Positions 3,441 to 14,653 of a stretch of DNA of 17,286 nucleotides are shown one piece after another; positions within the stretch are counted from its first letter, which is position 1, and each line of letters starts with the position of its first letter. The notes under the pieces are model-generated. The model worked only from the letters and a program-made list of their open reading frames with translations, was not told where the DNA came from and searched no databases. The stretch is from Ignavibacteriota bacterium (GTDB lineage: Bacteria; Bacteroidota; Ignavibacteria; Tepidaquicellales; Tepidaquicellaceae). Position numbers and translations under genes: made by a program. The DNA lies in assembly GCA_003135995.1 (NCBI GenBank), contig PNBM01000111.1, positions 15,677 through 32,962 of the forward strand, written 5' to 3'.

Positions 3441-3710
3441 TTATTTCATCAAAACCATTTTCTTCACTGCAACAAAATCTCCGGCTATCAATTTATAAAA
3501 ATAAACTCCGCTCGCCATCTGGTTAATGGTATATTGGTTATCTGGAAATTGAGTTTCGTATGTTCCGGCTTTTTGAAACTCGTTAACAAGAGTTTCTATT
3601 TCCCGCCCGAGAATATCATAAACTTTAAGTGTTACGAATCTTGAATCTTTAATCTGATATCTTATAATCGTCGACGGATTAAACGGATTCGGATAATTTT
3701 GTTTTAACTC
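3441..3710 (-). repeat. Type IX sorting-domain cassette, copy 1
   Basis: The last 90 codons of the 859-residue gene. The DNA is closely similar, including at synonymous positions, to 6217-6486 and 8774-9043. The most conserved part is about 3590-3705, where I count five differences from copy 2 in about 115 aligned bases by eye. Confidence 0.75.
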
Positions 3711-6020
3711 GAATCTCTGCGGAATATTAGCAGATATTTGATTAACATTAATTGTGAAATTTGTATCATAAAAACTTCTTACGTATGCACATAATTGTTT
3801 TAACTTTGTAACGGACTTTAAATTTCCCGAATCTCTCGCAATCAATTGAGCTATAACAAATTTCTGCGATTCACCGGGTATGATATTAAAGTTATTCGCT
3901 CCCGAGCCCATTGCCATTCTTCTATCATGAGGAATATCCGGTACATGAACTGTTCCAGTCGAATCGTGACCGCAATTCCACATTGAACCTTTATTTTCCG
4001 TCCAACCAATATTTGTTTCAGGATCACCAGGATAGCAAAATCTTGTTTTTTTAGCTGGATTTTGTGTTGGGTCAAGCCAACAGGTAGAATCTTTTTTAAA
4101 ACCGCTTAACATTAAATATGCCGCATGTGAATCACCACTAGGCTCTAACTCACAAGGAGGAAACACATCAGAAGAAGATTGATACGAAATGAACGATGTG
4201 AATCCCACTCTTATATTCGGAGTAATGCTTCTGTTTAACGGACTGGTCAATAATAGGAAGCCTACAGCAGGAGGATTTGTACCGTAAACTTCGTCATTGT
4301 TATCAGCATTATAACAATATCCAAGTTTTAAACTTGTATCGCATCCGACATAATCATCATTTGCATCACCTAAATCAGGGTCGGAAACGATTCCCATTTT
4401 GACTTCATTCCACGTATTTGTGCTTTTATTTATTATATCGTAACTAATAAACTGCACCTCCTGTAAACCCGGTGAATCATATGCCCAGGCGGTCATATGA
4501 ACTTCGGCACCAAGCGGAAGTGTTCCTCCGCCAAAGCCTTCCCATAAAGTGTGAGAAGCCGGATTTGCATCTGTCATACATAAGAATATAGTTTCTTTTG
4601 CGTTTTTAACTCCGGGTGTATCAATAGCCGGTTCATAGATTCCGTTATTATTTACATCAATGAATGGTGCCCCGTATGGGACCATCTCTCCCCAGTGTGC
4701 CCAGTCCCAACTTGTTTGTGCGTTTTCACTTTTGCTTACTTTGTAAATTTTAAAATAATCGTTTGTATAATAATTTCCACTGACACAATAACCCGGGCTG
4801 TATTCACCTGAATACGATGCGGCTACCATTCTTATTTGTCCGTTTACTTTTGCTGCTATGGTAAAACCGGCAGAGTAAATCGCATATTTGTTTGAATTTT
4901 TAGGCCATTCGAAACCTGCTCGATTTGTACTACTACTACTATTTTGATCGAAAATACCTGTTTTTATAAAATACGAATTAATATTATTTGGTCTTAGTTG
5001 TGCAAAATAATTTGGGTGATAAAGTGAATCCTTAATCCTTTTAAATATACTTCCATTCTCACCGACAAAGTAAGGAATTTCTGCTGAATAATAATTACTA
5101 TGCAGAAGGAGACAGGAATATAAATTAAATGAAGGCACACCCGAATCCAAAACCCAACTTGTACCGCTGTTAGTTGAAAACAACACTGCACTATTACCTG
5201 TTATCCAGAGATTAACAGAATCAGTAATTGAGGCTGGAATTATTGAGTTGAGATTTTGAGAAGAATTACTTACTTGTAGCACAATATTTAATCCGCCATT
5301 CGTAGTCCTTAGTATTGTACCGCCATCTCCGACAAAAAATCCTGTGTCTGAATTGATAAACCATACAGAATTCAGATTATTATTAACTCCGGAATTTAAC
5401 GGAATCCAGGTGTTTCCGGTATCATTTGATTTCAAAATTGTGCCGTTAGCACCTGCAATCCATCCATAAGGTTCACTTATAAAAATTGCTTTCAGATTAT
5501 TTGTTGTTCCACTCTGTATTATGGTAAGGTTTGAGTCGGAACCTTGAAAATACATTTTTTTAATTATCAATCCATTTGAACCCACGGCAATAAATCTCGC
5601 ATTACTAAAGGTAGGATGTGTACCCGCAACTGCTCCTGCGTATAAATTATTCATTATTCCACTATATTTTAAAAACCAATTTAAACCGGAGTTTGTGCTT
5701 TTGAGTAATACACCGTTATTACCTAAAATATAATCCGTTCCTGTTCCGGTATTATAATTCGCCACCATTGCGTTTAGAACTCCTGAGGTATTTGAATTTA
5801 TTTGATACCAGTTTGAATCTGCGTTTGCTATTCTGAGTATAGTGCCGTTTGCACCTACTATGTAATATCCACCTAAATTTAAATTATCCCCGGTCCGTTT
5901 AATATCATATAAATTATTCGATGTACCGCTGGGAACGGGATAATAGTAATATGGAACCTGTGAAAAACAAAAAACAGAAAACAAAAAACAAAAAACAATA
6001 TGTAAAATAAATATTTTCAT
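3441..6020 (-). CDS. Large secreted protein: BNR/YCF48-like repeats, conserved central module, type IX sorting domain
   Basis: The 859-residue protein begins with a signal peptide (residues 1-20, ending FCFSQ). Residues about 35-330 hold repeats of the kind found in YCF48/BNR propellers, such as VGANGTIL (55-62), GANGTILKSNDTGNTW (190-205) and GDGGTILRTTNGG (231-243). A central module (about 340-760) has no name I can give. It contains an acidic D-N-N-N-G turn (FIDVNNNGIYEPAIDTPG, 453-470), GGGTLPLGAE (497-506) and DPDLGDANDD (547-556); these acidic turns might bind calcium. The last 90 residues (770-859) are a type A sorting domain (NYPNPFNPST, YDILGRE, SGVYFYKL), recognised by the type IX secretion system. 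The protein is therefore probably exported and released or attached at the cell surface. It is a paralogue of the interrupted gene at 8774-11329. No Shine-Dalgarno sequence. Confidence 0.85.
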   Translation of the reverse strand: MKIFILHIVFCFLFSVFCFSQVPYYYYPVPSGTSNNLYDIKRTGDNLNLGGYYIVGANGTILRIANADSNWYQINSNTSGVLNAMVANYNTGTGTDYILGNNGVLLKSTNSGLNWFLKYSGIMNNLYAGAVAGTHPTFSNARFIAVGSNGLIIKKMYFQGSDSNLTIIQSGTTNNLKAIFISEPYGWIAGANGTILKSNDTGNTWIPLNSGVNNNLNSVWFINSDTGFFVGDGGTILRTTNGGLNIVLQVSNSSQNLNSIIPASITDSVNLWITGNSAVLFSTNSGTSWVLDSGVPSFNLYSCLLLHSNYYSAEIPYFVGENGSIFKRIKDSLYHPNYFAQLRPNNINSYFIKTGIFDQNSSSSTNRAGFEWPKNSNKYAIYSAGFTIAAKVNGQIRMVAASYSGEYSPGYCVSGNYYTNDYFKIYKVSKSENAQTSWDWAHWGEMVPYGAPFIDVNNNGIYEPAIDTPGVKNAKETIFLCMTDANPASHTLWEGFGGGTLPLGAEVHMTAWAYDSPGLQEVQFISYDIINKSTNTWNEVKMGIVSDPDLGDANDDYVGCDTSLKLGYCYNADNNDEVYGTNPPAVGFLLLTSPLNRSITPNIRVGFTSFISYQSSSDVFPPCELEPSGDSHAAYLMLSGFKKDSTCWLDPTQNPAKKTRFCYPGDPETNIGWTENKGSMWNCGHDSTGTVHVPDIPHDRRMAMGSGANNFNIIPGESQKFVIAQLIARDSGNLKSVTKLKQLCAYVRSFYDTNFTINVNQISANIPQRFELKQNYPNPFNPSTIIRYQIKDSRFVTLKVYDILGREIETLVNEFQKAGTYETQFPDNQYTINQMASGVYFYKLIAGDFVAVKKMVLMK
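3635..3655. repeat. Three 7-bp tandem units inside the sorting domain
   Basis: On the plus strand the units are CGAATCT, TGAATCT and TTAATCT. On the coding strand they encode the IKDSRF segment of the sorting domain. The same array is present at 6411-6431 and 8968-8988. Confidence 0.7.
5963..5997. repeat. Five 7-bp tandem units in a signal-peptide coding region
   Basis: The plus strand reads AAAAACA five times in register, with one unit GAAAACA. On the coding strand this is the hydrophobic core of the 859-residue protein's signal peptide (F/C/L/S-rich, about residues 9-19). Confidence 0.8.
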
Positions 6021-6135: not shown

Positions 6136-6201
6136 ATCCCGACACGTCCCGACTCGTCGGGATCAAGAACAAAGAGCGATCGGGACGCAAAGAACGCGAA
6201 T
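6136..6201. repeat. Palindromic repeat element, intergenic copy
   Basis: ATCCCGAC (6136-6143) pairs with GTCGGGAT (6156-6163), and a nested 7-bp stem TCCCGAC/GTCGGGA occupies 6147-6162. The following stretch, about 6161-6200 (containing GCGATCGGGACGCAAAGAAC), aligns with the elements inside the signal peptides at 8401-8452 and 14582-14633. It lies 15 bp from the stop codon of the 749-residue gene. Confidence 0.65.
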
Positions 6202-6216
6202 GTTGCGGTGCACTTT

Positions 6217-6486
6217 TTATTTCATTAAAATCATTTTTTTCACCGCTATAAAATCTCCCGCAACCAACTTATAAAAATAAACTCCGCTTGCCATTTGGTT
6301 AATGGTATATTGGTTATTGGGAAATTGGGTCTCGTAAGTACCCGCTTTTTGAAACTCATTGACAAGAGTTTCTATTTCCCGCCCAAGAATATCATAAACT
6401 TTCAGCGTTACGAATCTTGAATCTTTAATCTGGTATCTTATAATCGTCGACGGATTAAACGGATTAGGATAATTTTGTTTTAAATC
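6217..6486 (-). repeat. Type IX sorting-domain cassette, copy 2
   Basis: The last 90 codons of the 749-residue gene, with a 7-bp tandem array at 6411-6431 matching the one in copy 1. The similarity to copies 1 and 3 fades at the start of the domain, and the upstream body is unrelated in detail. Confidence 0.75.
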
Positions 6487-8466
6487 AAATTTCTCCGGAA
6501 CTTCCGTTGAAATATTTTTCACGTTTATAAATGAACCGGGAGGATAGTTAAATAATATCATTCCATTTTGTCCGCAGACAATACCGTGAACCGAGTCAGC
6601 GAAAGAGACAGAATTTAAATGCTCCGCATTTGATTCATATTGCCTGGTCCAGGTATTTCCCATATCTGTCGATGTATATATTTTTCCATAATCCAAAAAT
6701 TGGTGGTAAAAAGAAAATGTAGCTATTATTTTATTTGGAGTCGCAAAGCATATTGAATTTGCCCCAATCATATTATTCGAATCCAGAAGTACTGAAATCC
6801 AGTTGTTACCGCCGTTAGTCGTTTTTATTATCCTTCCACCAACATCATTTTGAGAAACACAACAGAATCCTGTAGATGGATTTAAAAACTTAATTTGATC
6901 TATTTCGCTAAGGTCTGAATAATTGGTTTGTTTAATCCAATTACTGCCTGCGTTGGTTGTCTTATAAATATTATCCGAACCAACATAAAATGTATTGTTA
7001 TCTATTAATTCGCCTGAATAAAACCCCCAACTACTGATTATATTAGTATTTATTACCTGCCAATTTAAACCACCGTTAGTTGTAATCTTCAGAAATGCAG
7101 ATGTCGAATTTTGTCCTAAGAGCATTCCGGTTTGAGAATTAATAAAATTAATATCTTTATAATGTTCGTTAAAACCCTGTGAAATTAAATTAGTCCAGTT
7201 TAATCCTCCGTTAGTCGATTTATATACTCCGGAATCATTTGTATTAATTGCTATTCCTGTATTCCCATTATAAAAACAAAATTTTCCCGCTCTTACGGTT
7301 GTATCTTTTATCCAGCTTAACCCTGAATTTGTTGTCCTGCATATAGAATAATTACTTCCAACAAGAGCGGTGGAAGGATTTAATAATACACAGCCCAACA
7401 ATTCTTCGTTTGTTATATATTTGCTGTCCTTCGTCCAATTCAATCCTGCGTTAGATGAGGAATAAATTTTTCCTTCATAACCTGCTAAAATTATTTTATT
7501 ATTATTAATAAATGATACGTCATGTGCTCCGGTTATATTCAGACTATCAATACAGTTCCAATCCTGACCTGCATTTGTTGTTAAATATGAAATTGGTCCT
7601 GCTCCTATTCCTGTTGAGTAATTAAGGAATTTAATATTATCAATCCCCAAATTATTAAAATAATGAAATGACGTCCAGTTATTTCCTCCGTCTGTAGTTT
7701 TACAAATAAATCTTAATCCCGATATGTAACCGGTATTTGTGTTAAGGAATGTCATTGACAAAGGTAATACGTTATTAATACTGTCGTTCTCTGCCGTTGA
7801 ATAAAAACCATAAATTATGTTCCAACTTCCTCCGCCATCAGTTGTTTTAAGAGTGCGGAAATAACAATTTCCGTTATTCAATGATTTACCTATTAATATA
7901 TGTACATCATTCTGGTTTATAAATGATATCGGCTGTGGGAAGAATACGCTATCGAAATATACGTGGTTCCAGTTTATGCCTGCGTTTGTAGAACGAAAAA
8001 TTAAATTTTTCCACGTAGAATCAGTTCCGGTTAATAAAAATGTTTCATTACCTATATACTGAGAATAATATAAATCAAAACCAGTTAGCAAAACGTTAAG
8101 AGCGTTCCAATTTGCACCGCCGTCAGTTGTTCTGAAAACAATATTTCCGCCCACAACAACACCTGTGTTTCCATCCCTGAAAGAAACACCTCTCAAAACT
8201 GTATGTGTAATACAAGGTAAAACAACCCAGTTATTACCGCCATTCGTTGTTTTTATAATTGTACCAAAATTACCAACGCCGTAACCTGTACTTGCATCGG
8301 GAAAATTGAGAGCGTAAATATCGTTTAACGTCGGGTAAGGATTTGATGTATACCATTGTGATTGGGAAAAAACTTTTCCAAAAAATAAAAAATAAAAAAT
8401 AATCCCGATTAAAAACGAAGTGCGATCGGGATGCAAAGAGCGCAAAAATAAAAGAAACTTTTTCAT
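6217..8466 (-). CDS. Secreted BNR/YCF48-like propeller protein with type IX sorting domain
   Basis: The 749-residue protein has an unusual signal peptide: MKKFLLFLRSLHPDRTSFL is followed by a hydrophobic core and FSQ near residue 35. The body (about 36-655) consists of repeats, each ending in a (T/S)TNGGxNW-like motif; I count 13, for example TTNGGNNW, TTDGGANW, STNAGINW and STDMGNTW. This fits one or two beta-propellers of the sortilin/YCF48/BNR type, a scaffold often found in secreted glycan- or protein-binding proteins. The ligand is unknown. Residues 660-749 are the type A sorting domain, nearly the same as in the two neighbouring secreted genes, though the body differs from theirs. The segment LFLRSLHPDR comes from a palindromic repeat shared with the HEAT-cyclophilin gene. 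No Shine-Dalgarno sequence is seen at the ATG. Confidence 0.85.
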   Translation of the reverse strand: MKKFLLFLRSLHPDRTSFLIGIIFYFLFFGKVFSQSQWYTSNPYPTLNDIYALNFPDASTGYGVGNFGTIIKTTNGGNNWVVLPCITHTVLRGVSFRDGNTGVVVGGNIVFRTTDGGANWNALNVLLTGFDLYYSQYIGNETFLLTGTDSTWKNLIFRSTNAGINWNHVYFDSVFFPQPISFINQNDVHILIGKSLNNGNCYFRTLKTTDGGGSWNIIYGFYSTAENDSINNVLPLSMTFLNTNTGYISGLRFICKTTDGGNNWTSFHYFNNLGIDNIKFLNYSTGIGAGPISYLTTNAGQDWNCIDSLNITGAHDVSFINNNKIILAGYEGKIYSSSNAGLNWTKDSKYITNEELLGCVLLNPSTALVGSNYSICRTTNSGLSWIKDTTVRAGKFCFYNGNTGIAINTNDSGVYKSTNGGLNWTNLISQGFNEHYKDINFINSQTGMLLGQNSTSAFLKITTNGGLNWQVINTNIISSWGFYSGELIDNNTFYVGSDNIYKTTNAGSNWIKQTNYSDLSEIDQIKFLNPSTGFCCVSQNDVGGRIIKTTNGGNNWISVLLDSNNMIGANSICFATPNKIIATFSFYHQFLDYGKIYTSTDMGNTWTRQYESNAEHLNSVSFADSVHGIVCGQNGMILFNYPPGSFINVKNISTEVPEKFDLKQNYPNPFNPSTIIRYQIKDSRFVTLKVYDILGREIETLVNEFQKAGTYETQFPNNQYTINQMASGVYFYKLVAGDFIAVKKMILMK
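8380..8400. repeat. Three perfect 7-bp tandem units in a signal-peptide coding region
   Basis: AAAAAAT occurs three times on the plus strand and encodes most of the hydrophobic core (about residues 22-29, IIFYFLFF) of the 749-residue protein's signal peptide. It directly adjoins the palindromic element at 8401-8452. Confidence 0.85.
8401..8452. repeat. Palindromic element read in frame within a signal peptide (copy A)
   Basis: ATCCCGAT (8402-8409) and ATCGGGAT (8425-8432) form a perfect 8-bp inverted repeat around a 15-nt loop, followed by a GCAAAGAGCGCAAAAATAAA flank. Together with the adjoining array (8380-8452, 73 bp) it matches 14561-14633 at 69 of 73 positions by my count. It encodes LFLRSLHPDRTSFLIG. 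Confidence 0.85.
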
Positions 8467-8475
8467 AAGATTACT

Positions 8476-8552
8476 ATTTGAGTTTTGTAATTTAATGTTT
8501 GAGCTCTGTAACTCAACATTTATATTTAGATGTTCTGTAACTCAACATTTAT
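8476..8552. repeat. Direct repeats in the intergenic region
   Basis: TCTGTAACTCAACATTTAT (19 bp) occurs exactly at 8505-8523 and 8534-8552. A degenerate relative, about 8477-8500 (TTTGAGTTTTGTAATTTAAT), lies just upstream of the 749-residue gene. The second copy runs into a stem, CTCAACAT/ATGTTGAG (8541-8558). Confidence 0.75.
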
Positions 8553-8559
8553 GTTGAGA

Positions 8560-8578
8560 TGTATCGCTAAGCGATACA
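8560..8578. repeat. 8-bp perfect hairpin
   Basis: TGTATCGC (8560-8567) pairs with GCGATACA (8571-8578) across a 3-nt loop TAA. Another small stem, CAACAT/ATGTTG, lies at 8594-8607 and repeats the core of the stem at 8543-8556. Confidence 0.7.
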
Positions 8579-8651
8579 CACACGTTTAATGCGCAACATG
8601 AATGTTGAACATAATTCGTGTAGTCAGGAATTTCGAATCTCTTTGATAACT

Positions 8652-8730
8652 TGTCATGCTGAACTTGTTTCAGCATCTAATCTTTCTTTCTCAACTAAAT
8701 ATGAGATCCCGAAACAAATTCGGGATGACA
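8652..8730. repeat. Palindromic element with two self-complementary 27-bp arms
   Basis: 8652-8678 and 8704-8730 are inverted relative to each other and match at 22 of 27 positions. Each arm also folds on itself: TGCTGAA/TTCAGCA on the left and ATCCCGAA/TTCGGGAT on the right. A dispersed intergenic repeat with these arms is familiar to me from many bacterial genomes. The plus-strand reading frame starting here (MLNLFQHL...) is a product of the repeat and not a gene. Confidence 0.8.
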
Positions 8731-8773
8731 AAACGAGTTAGCATAACAGATACATTCTTCCTGGCTCCATTTT

Positions 8774-9043
8774 TTATTTCATCAAAACCATTTTCTTCAC
8801 AGCAACAAAGTCGCCTGCGACCAATTTATAAAAATAAACTCCGCTTGCGAGTTGGTTATTGGATAATCGTTTATTGGGAAATTGAGTTTCATACGTTCCG
8901 GCTTTTTGAAATTCGTTAACAAGTGTTTCAATTTCCCTTCCGAGAATATCATAAACTTTTAAAGTTACGAATCTTGAATCTTTAATCTGGTATCTTATAA
9001 TCGTCGACGGATTAAACGGATTCGGATAATTTTGTTTCAATTC
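8774..9043 (-). repeat. Type IX sorting-domain cassette, copy 3
   Basis: The last 90 codons of the interrupted gene. It differs from copies 1 and 2 mainly in the segment QFPNKRLSNNQLASG, where the others read QFP(D/N)NQYTINQMASG. The 7-bp array CGAATCT/TGAATCT/TTAATCT is conserved at 8968-8988. Confidence 0.75.
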
Positions 9044-10192
9044 AAAACTTAGCGGGATGTTTGTAGAAATCTGATTTACAATTATCGGGAAATTTTGTTC
9101 ATAAAAATTTCTTACGAATATACTTAATTGTTTTAATTTTGTAACAGACTTTAAATTACCCGAATCTCTTGCAATCAGTTGTGCTATTACAAATTTTTGC
9201 GACTCACCCGGAAGAATATTAAAATTATTTACGCCCGAGCCTAAAATGAATCGTCTGTCTCCGGGCGGGCTCGGTGCATGAACCGAACCTGTTGAATCAA
9301 GACCACAATTTCCAATATATCCTTTTACTTCTGTCCAGCCTGTATTTGTCTCCGGGTCACCGGTAAATTCAAATTTTGTTTTCTTCGGTGGATTTTGTGT
9401 AACGTCAAGATAAGAAGTAGAATCTTTTTTGAATCCTGACAACATTAAATAAGCGGGATACGATTGACCAAGCGGGTCACCCTCGCAAGGAGGTGGTGCT
9501 GTTCCTTGATTTTTCATATCCGTAAAAGAAGTCATTCCCAGTCTAACATTTGGCGTAATATTCCTGTTTAGAGGACTCGTTAATAGCAATATACCAACTG
9601 CCGGCGGACTTGTGCCATAAACAGCATCATAATTATCTCCGTTATATCCATAGCCAAGTAATAAATTCGTATCACACCCTATATAATCGTCATTAGCATC
9701 ACCCAAATCCGGGTCACAGACAATTCCTGTTTTGACCGCATTCCAGGTGCTTGCACTTTTATTTATTATTTCAAAATTAATAAACTGAACGTCCTGCAAT
9801 CCGGGTGCATCGTAAGCCCACGCCGTCATATGAAGTTCTGCTCCGAGAGGAAGAGTTCCGCCTCCAAACCCTTCACCGTTTGTATGTGAATTTTGATAAG
9901 CATCCGTCATACAATAAAAAATAGTCTCCTTCGCATTTTTAACTCCCGGTGTATCTATTGCCGGTTCATAGATACCATTGTTATTTACATCAATAAAAGG
10001 TGCCCCGTAAGGTACCATCTGTCCCCAGTTTGCCCAATCCCAGTTTGTTTGCGAGTTATCACTTTTATTTACTTTATAAATTTTAAAATAGTCGTTTGTA
10101 ATATAATTTCCATTCACACAATATCCAGGGAGATATTCACCATTATACGACGCCATTGCTTCCCTGAGCTGTCCGTTTACAAATGCTCCCAT
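8774..10192 (-). CDS. C-terminal half of the interrupted paralogue: central module plus type IX sorting domain
   Basis: A 472-codon frame starting at an internal ATG five codons after the amber codon. It contains the second half of the central module, with FIDVNNNGIYEPAIDTPG, GGGTLPLGAE and DPDLGDANDD as in the 859-residue paralogue, and ends in the sorting domain (NYPNPFNPST ... SGVYFYKLVAGD). It has no signal peptide. If translated on its own it could not be exported, and no Shine-Dalgarno sequence precedes its ATG. It is best read as the separated 3' part of one ancestral gene. Confidence 0.7.
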   Translation of the reverse strand: MGAFVNGQLREAMASYNGEYLPGYCVNGNYITNDYFKIYKVNKSDNSQTNWDWANWGQMVPYGAPFIDVNNNGIYEPAIDTPGVKNAKETIFYCMTDAYQNSHTNGEGFGGGTLPLGAELHMTAWAYDAPGLQDVQFINFEIINKSASTWNAVKTGIVCDPDLGDANDDYIGCDTNLLLGYGYNGDNYDAVYGTSPPAVGILLLTSPLNRNITPNVRLGMTSFTDMKNQGTAPPPCEGDPLGQSYPAYLMLSGFKKDSTSYLDVTQNPPKKTKFEFTGDPETNTGWTEVKGYIGNCGLDSTGSVHAPSPPGDRRFILGSGVNNFNILPGESQKFVIAQLIARDSGNLKSVTKLKQLSIFVRNFYEQNFPIIVNQISTNIPLSFELKQNYPNPFNPSTIIRYQIKDSRFVTLKVYDILGREIETLVNEFQKAGTYETQFPNKRLSNNQLASGVYFYKLVAGDFVAVKKMVLMK

Positions 10193-10207
10193 ACAAAGAC
10201 CTGCTGT

Positions 10208-11329
10208 CTAAATATCTTTCTTGCCTGAACCTTTCGGCCATTCAAAACCTGCTGTATTTGTAATTGCCATATTTTGGTCAAATATTCCTTGTCTGGTAAA
10301 ATAAGCGCTTATATTATTAGGCCGTAATTGTGTCCAGATATTAAGATGATACATTGAATCGAGTGTTTTTCTGAAAATCTTTCCTCCCTCTCCGACAAAA
10401 TATGGAATACTAGTTTCGTAAATATGTGTATTGATATTAGAACAAGCGAAAAGATTGTATTGAGGTACTCCCGTGTCAAGAATCCATGTTTCTCCGTTAT
10501 TTGTAGAATAAATAACGGTCTTATTTCCTGCTATCAAAAGATTTGTTGCTGACTGAGTATAAATATAATTAAGATTTTGTGTGGTGCCGCTTGATTTTTG
10601 AATCCAGTTCAATCCTCCGTTCGATGTTTTCAAAATAACACCACCATCGCCAACAGCAAATCCCGTTACCGAATCTAAAAAGCTAACGGAATTAAGATTG
10701 TTTGTAATTAAAGAATTTCGCGGGTTCCAGGTATTTCCCGTATCTATAGAATTTAATATTGTACCGTTTGCACCTACAATCCATCCGTATCTATTAAAAT
10801 AACTTATTGATTTTAAATCTTTATTTGTACCACTTTGTATTACAACCCAGCTTGTGTCCATAGGAAGAACTAAATACCTTCTTATTATTAATCCATTTGC
10901 ACCTACAGCCATATATCTTGAGGAATAATATAGCATACCTGAATACATACCTGAATAAATATTATTAGAGACGCCTACATATTGTTGTAACCAGTTAATT
11001 CCGGAATTAGTAGATTTCGGTACGATTCCATTATTACCAAATAATAAGAACGGATTTAAATTCCCGTTAGATTTTAAATGTAATATCCCGTTCAAATCGG
11101 TTGTTGTATTGGTAATAACAGGAAGCCAGGCAGAATCAGGGTAATTTTGGTGAAGTAAAATTCCATTCGCTCCGCAAATATAATTTGAGTTCCCTGTACT
11201 ATATTGATTTTGAATATCATACAAATTATTCGTCGTTCCGCTGGGGACCTGGTAGTAATAATATGGTACCTGCGAAAATGCAGATAAAGTTAAAACGAGA
11301 TTAAGTATTAGCGCGTAGATATTTTTCAT
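10208..11329 (-). CDS. N-terminal half of the interrupted paralogue: signal peptide and BNR/YCF48-like repeats
   Basis: 373 codons from ATG to the amber codon. The signal peptide is MKNIYALILNLVLTLSAFSQ, followed by VPYYYYQVPSGTTNNLYDI, nearly the same mature N-terminus as the 859-residue protein. Repeats such as VGANGTILNSIDTGNTW and VGDGGVILKTSNGGLNW follow. It ends GFEWPKGSGKKDI, just inside the central module. The product would be exported but lacks the sorting domain, so it would probably remain in the periplasm or be degraded. Unlike most genes here it has a good Shine-Dalgarno sequence, GAGGGG. Confidence 0.75.
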   Translation of the reverse strand: MKNIYALILNLVLTLSAFSQVPYYYYQVPSGTTNNLYDIQNQYSTGNSNYICGANGILLHQNYPDSAWLPVITNTTTDLNGILHLKSNGNLNPFLLFGNNGIVPKSTNSGINWLQQYVGVSNNIYSGMYSGMLYYSSRYMAVGANGLIIRRYLVLPMDTSWVVIQSGTNKDLKSISYFNRYGWIVGANGTILNSIDTGNTWNPRNSLITNNLNSVSFLDSVTGFAVGDGGVILKTSNGGLNWIQKSSGTTQNLNYIYTQSATNLLIAGNKTVIYSTNNGETWILDTGVPQYNLFACSNINTHIYETSIPYFVGEGGKIFRKTLDSMYHLNIWTQLRPNNISAYFTRQGIFDQNMAITNTAGFEWPKGSGKKDI

Positions 11330-11338
11330 GTTTCAATT

Positions 11339-11344
11339 CCCCTC
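11339..11344 (-). promoter_or_regulatory. Shine-Dalgarno sequence of the interrupted secreted gene
   Basis: GAGGGG on the minus strand, 9 nt before the ATG at 11329. It supports this start; only this gene and the ferritin gene have such a site in the window. Confidence 0.65.
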
Positions 11345-11614
11345 AAATAATAATTTAAGATAAATATCTAATTTATAATGGAACACCTGAAACAATTACA
11401 AAATATTGAAAATTGAAGGAAATAAGATTGCACTCCTGCAAAATCATATTTCAAATAATGTAATGAGAAATATTTCAAAATGCAACAATAATTAGAAGTA
11501 GGATTGGTATTAACTATACACCTGTTAATATAGTAATTTATTAAATATGATTTAATTAATTACATTAAAACAATACAGCGTAGTCTTGTAATATATAAAA
11601 TTGACGTTGGATAT

Positions 11615-11642
11615 AAAAAATCCCCTGATAATCAGGGGATTT
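11615..11642 (-). terminator. Rho-independent terminator of the ferritin gene
   Basis: AAATCCCCTGA (11618-11628) pairs with TCAGGGGATTT (11632-11642) across the loop TAA, an 11-bp perfect stem. On the minus strand it is followed by a run of T (complement of AAAAAA, 11615-11620). It lies about 28 bp downstream of the ferritin stop. Confidence 0.9.
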
Positions 11643-11669
11643 AATGAAAATTAAAAAATTATAACATTT

Positions 11670-12182
11670 TTATGCTGTTGCAGCAGGAGGTGTAAACACG
11701 CGGGCAGCAAGTTCCTGGTCAATCATCAATAATCCGTATCCGTTTCCTTCGACGAGCTTGAGTTTACTTAATATTTTTTTATCCGTAGATTCTTCTTCTA
11801 CCTGCTCATCAACAAACCACTTAAGAAAACTTGCGGATGCGTGGTCGTTTTCTTTCACGGCAATATCCATCAGCTCGTTAATGCTTTTCGTAACGAAACG
11901 TTCGTGCTCAAGCGTTTTTTCGAAAAGTTCCGTGACCGATTTAAATTCTACCGGCGGTGAATCGATTTTTTTAAGTATTACCCTGCCGTCGCAGTCCGTT
12001 ACGAAGTTAAACATTTTCATGGCGTGGAAATGCTCTTCCTGCGTTTGCACCATAAAGAAATTTGCAAACCCGTCCAAATCCATTTCGTAACAATATGCCG
12101 CCATAGAAAGATACAGGTATTCGGAATAAAGCTCTTTGTTTATTTGTTCGTTGAAAGCGTCCTGAAGTTTTTGAGATAACAT
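11670..12182 (-). CDS. ftn: Non-heme bacterial ferritin (iron storage)
   Basis: 170 residues, the usual length of FtnA-type ferritins. All ferroxidase-centre positions of the E. coli FtnA numbering are present: Glu17, Glu50, His53, Glu94, Gln127 and Glu130. Conserved surroundings include LYSEYLYLSMAAY (18-30) and QTQEEHFHAMKM (46-57). It would oxidise Fe(II) and store it as a mineral in a 24-subunit cytoplasmic shell. It lacks the heme-binding Met arrangement of bacterioferritin, so the non-heme call is firm. It is a single-gene unit with a strong AAAGGAG ribosome binding site, a 16-bp palindrome just upstream and a clear terminator, consistent with high and regulated expression. Confidence 0.97.
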   Translation of the reverse strand: MLSQKLQDAFNEQINKELYSEYLYLSMAAYCYEMDLDGFANFFMVQTQEEHFHAMKMFNFVTDCDGRVILKKIDSPPVEFKSVTELFEKTLEHERFVTKSINELMDIAVKENDHASASFLKWFVDEQVEEESTDKKILSKLKLVEGNGYGLLMIDQELAARVFTPPAATA

Positions 12183-12191
12183 TTGTAATTT

Positions 12192-12198
12192 CTCCTTT
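12192..12198 (-). promoter_or_regulatory. Strong Shine-Dalgarno sequence of ferritin
   Basis: AAAGGAG on the minus strand, 9 nt before the ATG at 12182. It is the clearest ribosome binding site in the window and fixes the ferritin start. Confidence 0.85.
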
Positions 12199-12203
12199 CG
12201 GTT

Positions 12204-12219
12204 TTTATGTGCACATAAA
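12204..12219. promoter_or_regulatory. 16-bp perfect palindrome upstream of ferritin, possible operator
   Basis: TTTATGTGCACATAAA is perfectly self-complementary and lies 21 nt before the ferritin ATG, directly upstream of the ribosome binding site. The position suits a repressor site, or the 5' end of the transcript. It is not an obvious Fur, PerR or DtxR consensus, so I do not name a regulator. Confidence 0.5.
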
Positions 12220-12391
12220 TTTTTTACCGTAATTTTTCATATGTGTTTGTGCTTTTATTAATAAAAATTAATTAATTGGTGCAGAAATAATCCGCGAAAC
12301 TCTGTGTAATAGACTAAAACGATTTATTTTTATAATTTGTTTCGTCTAAATTAAGAAATTAATAAATATTTAGCTACTTATTAAATTAAGA

Positions 12392-12412
12392 ATTCTGAAT
12401 GCTGAATTATGA
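12392..12412. repeat. Three 7-bp tandem units, left arm of an inverted array pair
   Basis: The units are ATTCTGA, ATGCTGA and ATTATGA. The stretch 12391-12408 is exactly complementary to 12439-12456 (18-bp stem, 30-nt loop). Confidence 0.8.
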
Positions 12413-12439
12413 ATTATCTTTCATTTTGCTGTTTTTAAA

Positions 12440-12467
12440 ATTCAGCATTCAGAATTTAGAATTCAGC
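12440..12467. repeat. Four 7-bp tandem units, right arm of an inverted array pair
   Basis: The units are ATTCAGC, ATTCAGA, ATTTAGA and ATTCAGC, the reverse complement type of the left array. The array lies 5 bp from the stop codon of the HEAT-cyclophilin gene, so its transcript would end in a long hairpin. Confidence 0.8.
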
Positions 12468-12472
12468 ATTTA

Positions 12473-14653
12473 TTAATACTCTATAATTAAAATTTCTAAA
12501 GCCTTATCCCCGACCTGAATTTTATCAACAACGTCCATTCCTTCGGTTACTTCGCCGATGATAGTATAGCGCCCGTCGAGATGGTAATGAGGTGAGTGCA
12601 TAATAAAATACTGGCTGCCTTCGGTATCTTTTCCGTCCGAAGCAATACCTACTAAACCTCTCTCATAATATAACGGAGAAAATTCCGAACGAATGGAATA
12701 TCCGCATCCTCCCCAGCCGTTATTGAGCGGGTCTCCGCCCTGTATAACAAAATTCGGAACAACGCGTGGAAACTCCAACCCGTCATAAAATTTTTTCTGT
12801 GCCAGCTTTACAAAATTCTGAACGGAAAAAGGTGCAGCTTCGGGGTAAAATTTAATTTTAATCTCACCATATTCGGTTTTTATTACCGCTGTTTTTTTTG
12901 AAAGCGATTTTATAAATTCCCAATCAAAATCAGTCCGCGGTTTTGTTTTAAATTTAAATTTCTTTCCGGTAATCTTTTCCAGCGCCACGGCAGATGCTTT
13001 GCAGATATCATAATCGGGAGAATTCAAATTTTTCTTTAGTATATCTAACCCTTTTTTAAATTTTAATTCTCCGATTTCGTTTATGTAAAGCATCATCACT
13101 TCTTTGTCTTTCGGATAGGTTAATTCAGAATAATCCATTACAAAAAATTCCTGCATGAAATTAAATTTTCCGGATTCAAGTGTGTCGGAATTTATGAATG
13201 TAATGCATTCATCTACTATAACCGGTTCTTTTGAATCTGTAAAAGCTGAAATCAGAATTCTTATATTTGCTTTTGTTGTATCATCTGCTTTTTTATACAA
13301 TTCCGATAACATCCCTACGTAAGCAATGTAAATCTTTCCAAGTTCTTTTGACTGAATCATATCTCCGTCAGGCGTTTTGAAAATAATATTGTACCTCTGA
13401 ACATCAGCGCTGATAGTATCAGTTAATTCCCTCCAGACCAGGGCATTATCAAAGTATTTAAAGGCTCCCACTATAAAGGGTTTTATATCATAACCCGGCG
13501 TCTCTGAATATTTCTGAAGCAAAATATTTTTAACGGAATCTTTAAAAATCATTCCGTACGAATTAATCGCTTCGCCGATATCTCTCCAGTCAACTGCTAT
13601 GTCAGGTTTCAGATACCATTCGAGTTTATTTTTTATTACCTGAAGAAATTTATTTTCGGAATTAAGTTTTGAGAAAAGTAATCCGGTAACAGTAAATCCG
13701 GTTATTCTCACATTAGGATTCATATCATCGAAGGAAGAGAATAAACATTCAATTAGTTTTTGATTTAAAACCGACTCGTCCGCTTTTTTATAATTGTTAA
13801 ATGAATTTAATATATTAGTTTTCACCATCCAGCTCGATTCGGAAGAATATTTGTCGAGTACAAAATCAATATCGTGAGTATCTGCAATATATCCCAGCGC
13901 AGTAAAAGCCCACATTCGGGAGAACTCATTTTTTGAATTGCAAAGCTTTAAAATTTCTTCGTGAATCGGAGTTAATAATTCTTTTGAGCGCATACGAAAA
14001 AGTGCATATGCTATTTTTTCTTCGAGTTCTTTAGACGGGTTACTGTTAATTAATTCTTTTAAGTATTTAATTGCTTCATTACTTTTTATTCCTCGAATCG
14101 CAAATCGGGCAATTGATAACGCAACATATTCATTTACTCCGGGGTCAGAGTATTGAGAGGATAAAATTAATTCAAGTGAAGATTTGTCGCCGACTTTTCC
14201 AAGCGCGTCGAAAATATATTTTACTACTTCGGGCGTTTCTTCTTTATACCGCGAACTATCGAGATAAAATACGGATTTCCCGCAGGGAATCTGTCCGAGA
14301 GCAAAAGCGGAAAATTTCCTTACCTCAGTTCGTGGATCACTCAGAAGTATTTTTCCAATTTCATCAACTGTCATAGAATCAGAAATATTTGCGAGCGCAT
14401 TTAACGTCAGAGTTACAATTTTTTCATTGGAAGATTTCAAATAATTCAGAAGTTCTTTGTTAGGTCCTAAATCCCTTGTGTCCTGGTATGTAAGAATTTT
14501 CTTTTCGTCTGCAGAATATTCCTGCGAGTAAATGTTTGCAAAAAATAAAAAACTGAAAATAAAAAATAAAAAATAAAAAATAATCCCGATTAAAAGCGAA
14601 GAACGATCGGGATGCAAAGAACGCAAAAATAAATTTGTTTTATTATTATACAT
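12473..14653 (-). CDS. Exported HEAT-repeat protein with C-terminal cyclophilin-type peptidyl-prolyl isomerase
   Basis: A 726-residue fusion. An unusual signal peptide (MYNNKTNLFLRSLHPDRSSLL, a long hydrophobic stretch, then YSQ near residue 44) is followed by alpha-helical HEAT-like repeats over about residues 60-580, such as DPRTEVRKFSAFALGQI and DYDICKASAVALEKITGKKF. Residues 587-726 form a cyclophilin domain. The motif FPRVVPNFVIQGGD (628-641) contains the catalytic Arg630. GSQYFI (679-684) and HLDGRYTIIGEV (691-702) match the active-site wall. It probably acts as a periplasmic or envelope foldase, with the HEAT part binding clients or partners. It is the third gene of a probable pgi > GNAT > cyclophilin operon, 51 bp after GNAT. 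The N-terminus contains a palindromic repeat shared with the 749-residue gene. Confidence 0.88.
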   Translation of the reverse strand: MYNNKTNLFLRSLHPDRSSLLIGIIFYFLFFIFSFLFFANIYSQEYSADEKKILTYQDTRDLGPNKELLNYLKSSNEKIVTLTLNALANISDSMTVDEIGKILLSDPRTEVRKFSAFALGQIPCGKSVFYLDSSRYKEETPEVVKYIFDALGKVGDKSSLELILSSQYSDPGVNEYVALSIARFAIRGIKSNEAIKYLKELINSNPSKELEEKIAYALFRMRSKELLTPIHEEILKLCNSKNEFSRMWAFTALGYIADTHDIDFVLDKYSSESSWMVKTNILNSFNNYKKADESVLNQKLIECLFSSFDDMNPNVRITGFTVTGLLFSKLNSENKFLQVIKNKLEWYLKPDIAVDWRDIGEAINSYGMIFKDSVKNILLQKYSETPGYDIKPFIVGAFKYFDNALVWRELTDTISADVQRYNIIFKTPDGDMIQSKELGKIYIAYVGMLSELYKKADDTTKANIRILISAFTDSKEPVIVDECITFINSDTLESGKFNFMQEFFVMDYSELTYPKDKEVMMLYINEIGELKFKKGLDILKKNLNSPDYDICKASAVALEKITGKKFKFKTKPRTDFDWEFIKSLSKKTAVIKTEYGEIKIKFYPEAAPFSVQNFVKLAQKKFYDGLEFPRVVPNFVIQGGDPLNNGWGGCGYSIRSEFSPLYYERGLVGIASDGKDTEGSQYFIMHSPHYHLDGRYTIIGEVTEGMDVVDKIQVGDKALEILIIEY
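14540..14581. repeat. Six 7-bp tandem units in a signal-peptide coding region
   Basis: On the plus strand the units are AAAAAAT, AAAAAAC, TGAAAAT and AAAAAAT three times. On the coding strand they form the hydrophobic core of the cyclophilin protein's signal peptide (about residues 25-38). Confidence 0.85.
14582..14633. repeat. Palindromic element read in frame within a signal peptide (copy B)
   Basis: ATCCCGAT (14583-14590) and ATCGGGAT (14606-14613) flank a 15-nt loop, with the same flank as copy A (8401-8452). It encodes LFLRSLHPDRSSLLIG in the same reading frame as copy A. Confidence 0.85.

Follow-up and report, generated by a model that had tools for sequence, protein, structure and literature searches.

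Two unrelated exported proteins of an Ignavibacteriota bacterium carry, in frame within their signal peptides, a 42-bp (14-codon) hairpin element that interrupts a short tandem array of the heptamer TTTTTTA. The element is best explained as a non-autonomous hairpin repeat, mostly 29-52 bp long and with the core GCGYTCTTTGCRTCCCGAY...RTCGGGAY, which has multiplied in one Ignavibacteriota lineage. This hairpin has probably been inserted into arrays and palindromes, and repeats of the spacers have probably been kept in genes mainly within peptides that are discarded on export. As a mechanism, the element would insert precisely into tandem arrays of short period and into other palindromes at their centres.

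The window, i.e. the whole stretch of 17,286 nucleotides that was analysed (contig C282:15677-32962), is part of a 4.23-Mb genome in 383 contigs. It contains a 73-nt direct repeat (8380-8452 versus 14561-14633), identical at 69 of 73 positions and with mismatches at 8415, 8421, 8422 and 8440. The first-pass annotation, which had treated the shared 73-nt segment as the repeat, counted its matches correctly, and the 8-bp inverted repeat that it described (ATCCCGAT/ATCGGGAT) is present as the stem. The segment does contain a dispersed palindrome, but 31 of its bases belong to the flanking (TTTTTTA)n array and only 42 bp, carrying all four mismatches, form the element proper. Copy 1 (GCGYTCTTTGCATCCCGAT..ATCGGGAT; 8402..8443, minus strand) occupies codons 8-22 of the gene at 6217..8466(-) (MKKFLLFLRSLHPDRTSFLIGIIFYFLFF...), which encodes a YCF48-like BNR propeller (PF14870) with a C-terminal T9SS sorting domain (PF18962; 6220-6519), the loop of which has no insert. 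Copy 2 (14583..14624, minus strand) lies close to the start of the gene at 12473..14653(-) (MYNNKTNLFLRSLHPDRSSLLIGIIFYFLFF...), encoding an exported protein of HEAT repeats and a cyclophilin domain (PF00160). Frames and Pfam content agree with the earlier claim that two exported proteins, unrelated to each other, share an in-frame repeat in their signal peptides. On its 3' side, copy 1 is bordered by the array at 8380..8401 (minus strand, coding for IFYFLFF in the hydrophobic core of the signal peptide), with a 5' remnant at about 8444-8453; the corresponding array of copy 2 is at 14556..14582 (minus strand, IFYFLFFIF), with a 5' remnant at about 14625-14632.

With up to two mismatches, TTTGCATCCCGATC occurs three times in the window against an expectation of 0.14. 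A third relative of the element is intergenic (6137..6197, minus strand), longer and composite, consisting of GCGTTCTTTGCGTCCCGA and a second module, TCGCTCTTTGTTCTTGATCCCGA, between the arms CGCAACAT/ATGTTACG. Judged from its sequence, the loop of the two signal-peptide copies looks like a remnant of this sister module, which is fuller in the intergenic composite. A (TTTTTTG)n array at 5978..5998 (minus strand), free of any palindrome, codes for the hydrophobic core in yet a third signal peptide, that of gene 3441..6020. Other repeats are dense in the spacer upstream of the BNR gene (8490-8690; ctgtaactcaacatttatgttgag, atcgctaagcgat, catgctgaacttgtttcagcat), and a 30-nt inverted repeat pair with AATTCAG-like heptamers lies downstream of the HEAT-cyclophilin gene (12384-12463). 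The adjacent ORFs 8774..10192 and 10208..11329 (8774-11329, minus strand) jointly resemble the single 859-aa gene 3441..6020, and are probably its frameshift-split paralogue.

Excision of either 8402-8443 or 14583-14624 restores a perfect TTTTTTA array and leaves ordinary signal peptides, MKKFLLFFIFYFLFFGKVFSQ and MYNNKTNLFFIFYFLFFIFSFLFFANIYSQ, with the BNR frame open. The signal peptide of another T9SS protein (L264:5333), MKKLFLFLIFYFLFFGDLFAQ, is likewise encoded by an array and equal in length to MKKFLLFFIFYFLFFGKVFSQ. In both window genes, the landing site would have been a (TTTTTTA)n array coding for the hydrophobic core of the signal peptide, and since a 42-bp insertion keeps the frame, the protein would have gained 14 residues (RSLHPDR..) ahead of an intact core. 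In a comparison with orthologues of the HEAT-cyclophilin, RSLHP is absent from the signal peptide of all 24 relatives with a readable N-terminus of this protein (29 loci fetched). The 21-nt TTTTTTA array was found in none of 39 relatives. When the same boundary rule is applied to 32 copies, the length is divisible by three in only six of them, both signal-peptide copies included. Masked bases form part of one of these six, and a pair of signal-peptide copies, which may moreover share an origin, is too small a number for a test.

The position of the element near the gene starts could also mean that it lies outside the protein, with translation beginning at a TTG inside or after it and the hairpin regulating translation from the 5' leader. 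An in-frame TTG (CTTTGCAT) is indeed present within the element, the copy in L202 precedes a gene whose start resembles a signal peptide, and a survey of REP sequences cautions that REPs at N-termini are frequently extragenic (PMC3733652). This reading is nevertheless improbable: there is an upstream ATG with a canonical MKKFLLFL start, both genes keep the frame from their ATG, the joined flanks form complete ordinary signal peptides, and the folding of the window copies does not exceed that of shuffles (z -0.0 and -1.2). A structured RNA was rejected on this folding result and on an Rfam search of the window, in which no family reached the gathering threshold. Still less credible is a selected function, in which recruitment of the element would have served to make the n-region of signal peptides longer or to tune it. 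Both copies add R, H and R charges ahead of the core, but only two of 41 distinct copies are located in signal peptides, export segments tolerate several types of repeat, of which the element is one, and the readable orthologues lack it.

Insertion into existing arrays is the preferred reading. There are 24 places in the genome with TTTTTTR arrays of 20 nt or more; five of the 23 distinct ones examined are clear signal-peptide cores, and the palindrome is present in two of these five. Each heptamer array encodes one and the same heptapeptide in all frames because 7 and 3 share no factor: (TTTTTTA)n gives the hydrophobic FIFYFLF, and (GGAAAAT)n the hydrophilic GKWKMEN. The early suggestion that a repeat is reused to provide export signals suits the heptamer array, with its coding for the hydrophobic core, better than it suits the palindrome, which only lengthens the n-region. 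A TTTTTTA array also codes for the hydrophobic core of a lipoprotein-type signal in L280 (IFYFLFFIFLLSGC).

The two copies need not stem from two insertions. There is a little under an even chance that a single insertion into one signal peptide was copied to the other, 6 kb away, by gene conversion or ectopic recombination via the TTTTTTA homology, a course of events compatible with the main explanation. Both copies share the loop remnant CGYWCTTCGYTTTTA, found otherwise only distantly, in L003, among the copies read, and both are surrounded by 31 identical array bases. Any insertion into the same heptamer, however, should be bordered by identical array flanks, the homology ends where the arrays end, and four of the 42 element bases differ.

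The two copies belong to a dispersed palindromic repeat, as had been proposed from the window, with at least 42 copies in the genome. The exact 14-nt core (TCTTTGCRTCCCGA) occurs at 42 places in the source genome, or at 47 once matches to TGYGYTCTTTGCATCCCGA with up to one mismatch are added. By itself, TGYGYTCTTTGCATCCCGA with up to one mismatch is found 38 times, its reversed control not once. The 42 distinct copies that were read (copies with identical flanks being merged) have the form GCGYTCTTTGCRTCCCGAY, loop, then RTCGGGA, and the common form combines a 7-bp stem (ATCCCGA/TCGGGAT) with the loop CTTG and an 11-nt 5' segment. For the 32 copies with both flanks, core lengths are 28 (19 copies), 33 (4), 35 (3), 41 (2), 51 (2), 39 (1) and 50 (1), two of these lengths containing masked bases. 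The window copies are the length class 41, or 42 bp including the next base.

An artefact of a fragmented metagenome assembly is very improbable as the source of the window copies. The genome is split into 383 contigs, some copies elsewhere contain NN joins, and the last 125 bases of source contig C123 (L221) equal the end of PMIW01000124.1 (L153), a contig of another Ignavibacteriae assembly; C123 is possibly a misbinned neighbour contig, broken at an element copy. Near the window copies, on the other hand, there is no N, the copies differ at four sites, their flanks differ beyond the arrays, and the host genes have open frames of 726 and 749 aa.

The element is found in four of 40 relatives, the source genome included, and the other three have 1, 3 and 7 copies. 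In a draw of 395 genomes of the phylum, which left out these three element-positive relatives, the core is present in two genomes including the source, with 38 places in the source and one place among the other 394. A spread across bacteria was considered and rejected: an 18-mer scan of genome contigs returned 35 stretches, of which 18 are in Ignavibacteriae/Ignavibacteria records and about 15 are expected by chance (an estimate), and in the matches from other phyla the second arm is mostly missing.

Copies of the element interrupt pre-existing short tandem arrays or palindromes. Some lie within arrays, e.g. of ATTTAAC, CCATTTT, AAAAAAT or ACTTGATAA, and others between the arms of palindromes such as CCACGACTT/AAGTCGTGG, CACAACAT/ATGTTGTG and GTCATCCCCGAATG/ATCGGGGAT. 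The match between flanks was measured for 32 copies as the longest exact direct or inverted match in 20 bases on each side, and compared with 2000 permutations in which left and right flanks were re-paired. The mean longest match is 7.6, the best permuted mean is 5.9, and none of the 2000 permutations reaches the observed value, with the reservation that the copies are not fully independent, because several share one host-palindrome family. Period 7 is the commonest tandem period (18 of 43 arrays in spacers and nine of 20 in coding DNA) in a non-random sample of 922 kb in 61 stretches, many of them picked for T9SS hits. The element is presumably mobile through the action of an enzyme; no transposase was found and no clear target duplication is seen at the copies; the flanks do match, though the targets are repeats themselves, and an insertion in L173 leaves no duplication.

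Coding copies are few. Among 41 distinct copies (identical ones merged), six overlap ORFs of 120 aa or more: two in signal peptides, one in a T9SS loop (L228:1626), one near an ORF C-terminus (L212:19316, with masked bases nearby), and two others. The overlaps in L202 and L207 look extragenic or spurious, and in L202 the gene start is more likely downstream. That all copies other than the window pair are intergenic, a case the first-pass annotation had considered, is nearly so, the exceptions being the in-frame T9SS-loop copies in L228:1626 (source genome) and in L053 (a relative). The preference for signal peptides that it had proposed was not upheld, since the two signal-peptide copies among the 41 are both in the window and palindromes in the first 40 codons account for three of 22 coding copies (p=0.41). 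This share is not above expectation, and a signal-peptide hot spot was rejected on that basis.

The export segment in which repeats are enriched is the loop of the T9SS sorting domain. The genome has at least 150 sorting-domain matches over the cut-off (150 of 320 candidates scored; TIGR04183/PF18962). Among 136 distinct loops in the DNA of the source genome that was examined, 112 span the standard 29 residues and 24 exceed that length, and by eye 22 of these 24 hold recognisable repeats, a few of them degenerate. The repeats comprise CCCCCCTT.GAAGGGGGG, GTCATTCC/GTCATCCCC palindromes, GGAAAAT arrays and two nested cases. Both nested cases form clean pairs of a filled and an empty site: L173 minus exactly the 33 bp of the sister module is the sequence of L167, and removal of 29 bp from L035 leaves a GGAAAAT array like that of L266 but for one additional G, by which the frame is restored. 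In a relative (L053/L146), the element is found at the same T9SS loop, in frame. Two GTCATCCCCGAA-type palindromes stand in tandem in the T9SS loop at L216:4153-4202; beyond them the reading frame seems to be broken, at masked bases.

A first test of loop enrichment was partly circular, as some palindrome patterns derived from loops, and it was repeated with window-derived patterns and with palindromes detected de novo (arms of at least 8, GC-rich). The density of de novo palindromes per 100 kb is 45 outside ORFs (at least 120 aa), 75 in the T9SS loop, 1.2 in the first 40 codons and 0.89 in other coding DNA. Seven of the 14 de novo coding palindromes are in the loop, which makes up 1.2% of coding bases (p=1e-10), although six of the seven belong to a single CCCCCC family, so that paralogous copying rather than independent insertion may inflate the enrichment. 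Patterns drawn from the window element and from its hosts in spacers put five of 13 coding copies in the loop (p=3e-7), those of the element and the sister module alone two of six (p=0.002). The genome sample had been selected in part for T9SS hits. An all-against-all repeat survey was set aside because spacer fragments of T9SS and BNR genes swamp the repeats.

An AlphaFold model of an insert-bearing T9SS domain is a confident beta-sandwich (mean pLDDT 78), in which the insert (residues 32-53) falls within a low-confidence stretch that separates strand 24-31 from strand 54-61. The best two fold matches in the PDB are T9SS C-terminal domains with E ~2e-3, none reaching E <= 0.001, and a sequence search of this domain against solved structures gave nothing relevant. 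In relatives, 21 of 43 T9SS loops exceed 29 residues, mostly without clear palindromes, in a search biased by a query that carried the insert; the loop therefore varies for other reasons too. An insert-free T9SS segment, IRYQIKDSRF (window 6220-6519, 3444-3743 and 8777-9076), is apparently coded by an AGATTNN-like heptamer, so that standard loops may also derive from arrays. An exception to the rule of export segments is the sister module at L212:14893-14925, in frame in a 727-aa ParB protein (PF02195, PF17762), ahead of the ParB_N domain. Searches of the open-licence PubMed Central literature returned no report of repeats in T9SS sorting domains.

Both the T9SS C-terminal domain and the signal peptide are cleaved on export, and inserts in these segments need not disturb the mature protein. 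Spacer repeats would be kept in coding DNA where the peptide should be discarded, in the signal peptide and much more often in the T9SS loop. Cleavage would explain both their in-frame survival in these segments and their rarity elsewhere, assuming that the host proteins are expressed and exported normally and lose the inserted peptides. A more far-reaching and tentative proposal, which we consider possible but doubtful, is that the genome builds and remodels its export signals from frame-neutral repeat DNA, with arrays as landing pads for hairpins and cleaved export segments as the evolutionary gateway of repeats into proteins. Arrays that encode the same heptapeptide in every frame could then, at any landing site, turn into the core of a signal peptide or the loop of a sorting domain. 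The question of how spacer repeats turn into protein sequence thereby becomes countable: at least one discardable export segment looks as permissive for repeats as the spacers of the source genome, precise filled and empty pairs inside genes constrain how a hairpin element moves, and frame neutrality offers a simple reason why 7-bp arrays become coding DNA.

REPs, described as hairpins of 20-40 bp in many copies, some of them within ORFs, are similar in size, and the intragenic ones are reported at variable positions along ORFs, many in genes of DNA synthesis and repair (PMC3733652). The present element differs from GTAG-REPs in that the copies read have GCGYTCTTTGC ahead of the stem and lack GTAG at that place. 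CGTC-REPs are described with an unpaired CGTC (TGTC/CCTC) end, a stem of 8-9 bp, a loop of 4-5 nt and a CCA-like tail (PMC3733652), whereas the element copies read are without an unpaired CGTC, and the GCGTCCCGA subtype has TC inside the stem. Mobilisation by a RAYT was considered and rejected: six PF01797 matches (five over the cut-off) have no module-1 or module-2 match at their loci, and these six Y1_Tnp loci have other small palindromes, including one generic CCCGACTTGTCGGG hairpin in L095. The tight palindromes that flank the RAYT/Y1 genes in L094, L095 and L099 are of different types (GTGCCGTAGGCAC, ATCCCGAAGGGAT, CCCCGAAGGGG).

The Yersinia YPAL/RU-2 MITE is described as a mobile palindromic repeat within the predicted signal peptide of YPO1552 (PMC2229807). 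That case concerns a candidate new gene, whereas here the insertion is into existing exported proteins and is nested in a heptamer array. The yeast mitochondrial gene var1 contains an in-frame GC cluster. Such clusters are described as short and palindromic, as adjoining AT-rich DNA and as merging with one another (PMC4478555); they differ in belonging to an organelle and in targeting AG nucleotides, and are not known to be linked to export signals. The TAACTGA heptamers of the Beggiatoaceae are described as dispersed 7-bp direct repeats between genes (PMC4679880), in contrast to the several units found here, some of which code for signal-peptide cores or T9SS-loop peptides.

The likeness to Rickettsia palindromic elements (RPEs), drawn at first pass, applies to behaviour and not to membership. 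RPEs are described as palindromic and mostly intergenic, but also as present in frame in unrelated protein genes (PMC2229807, PMC1950309), a property shared by the window element, and as 105-146 bp long with 12-bp inverted ends (PMC2229807), compared with an insert of 42 bp and a stem of 8 bp. In-frame insertion is already published for RPEs, as are REPs inside genes and a Yersinia MITE that supplies part of a signal peptide. Landing sites in arrays and palindromes, together with the association with export segments, set the element described here apart from RPEs as these are described.
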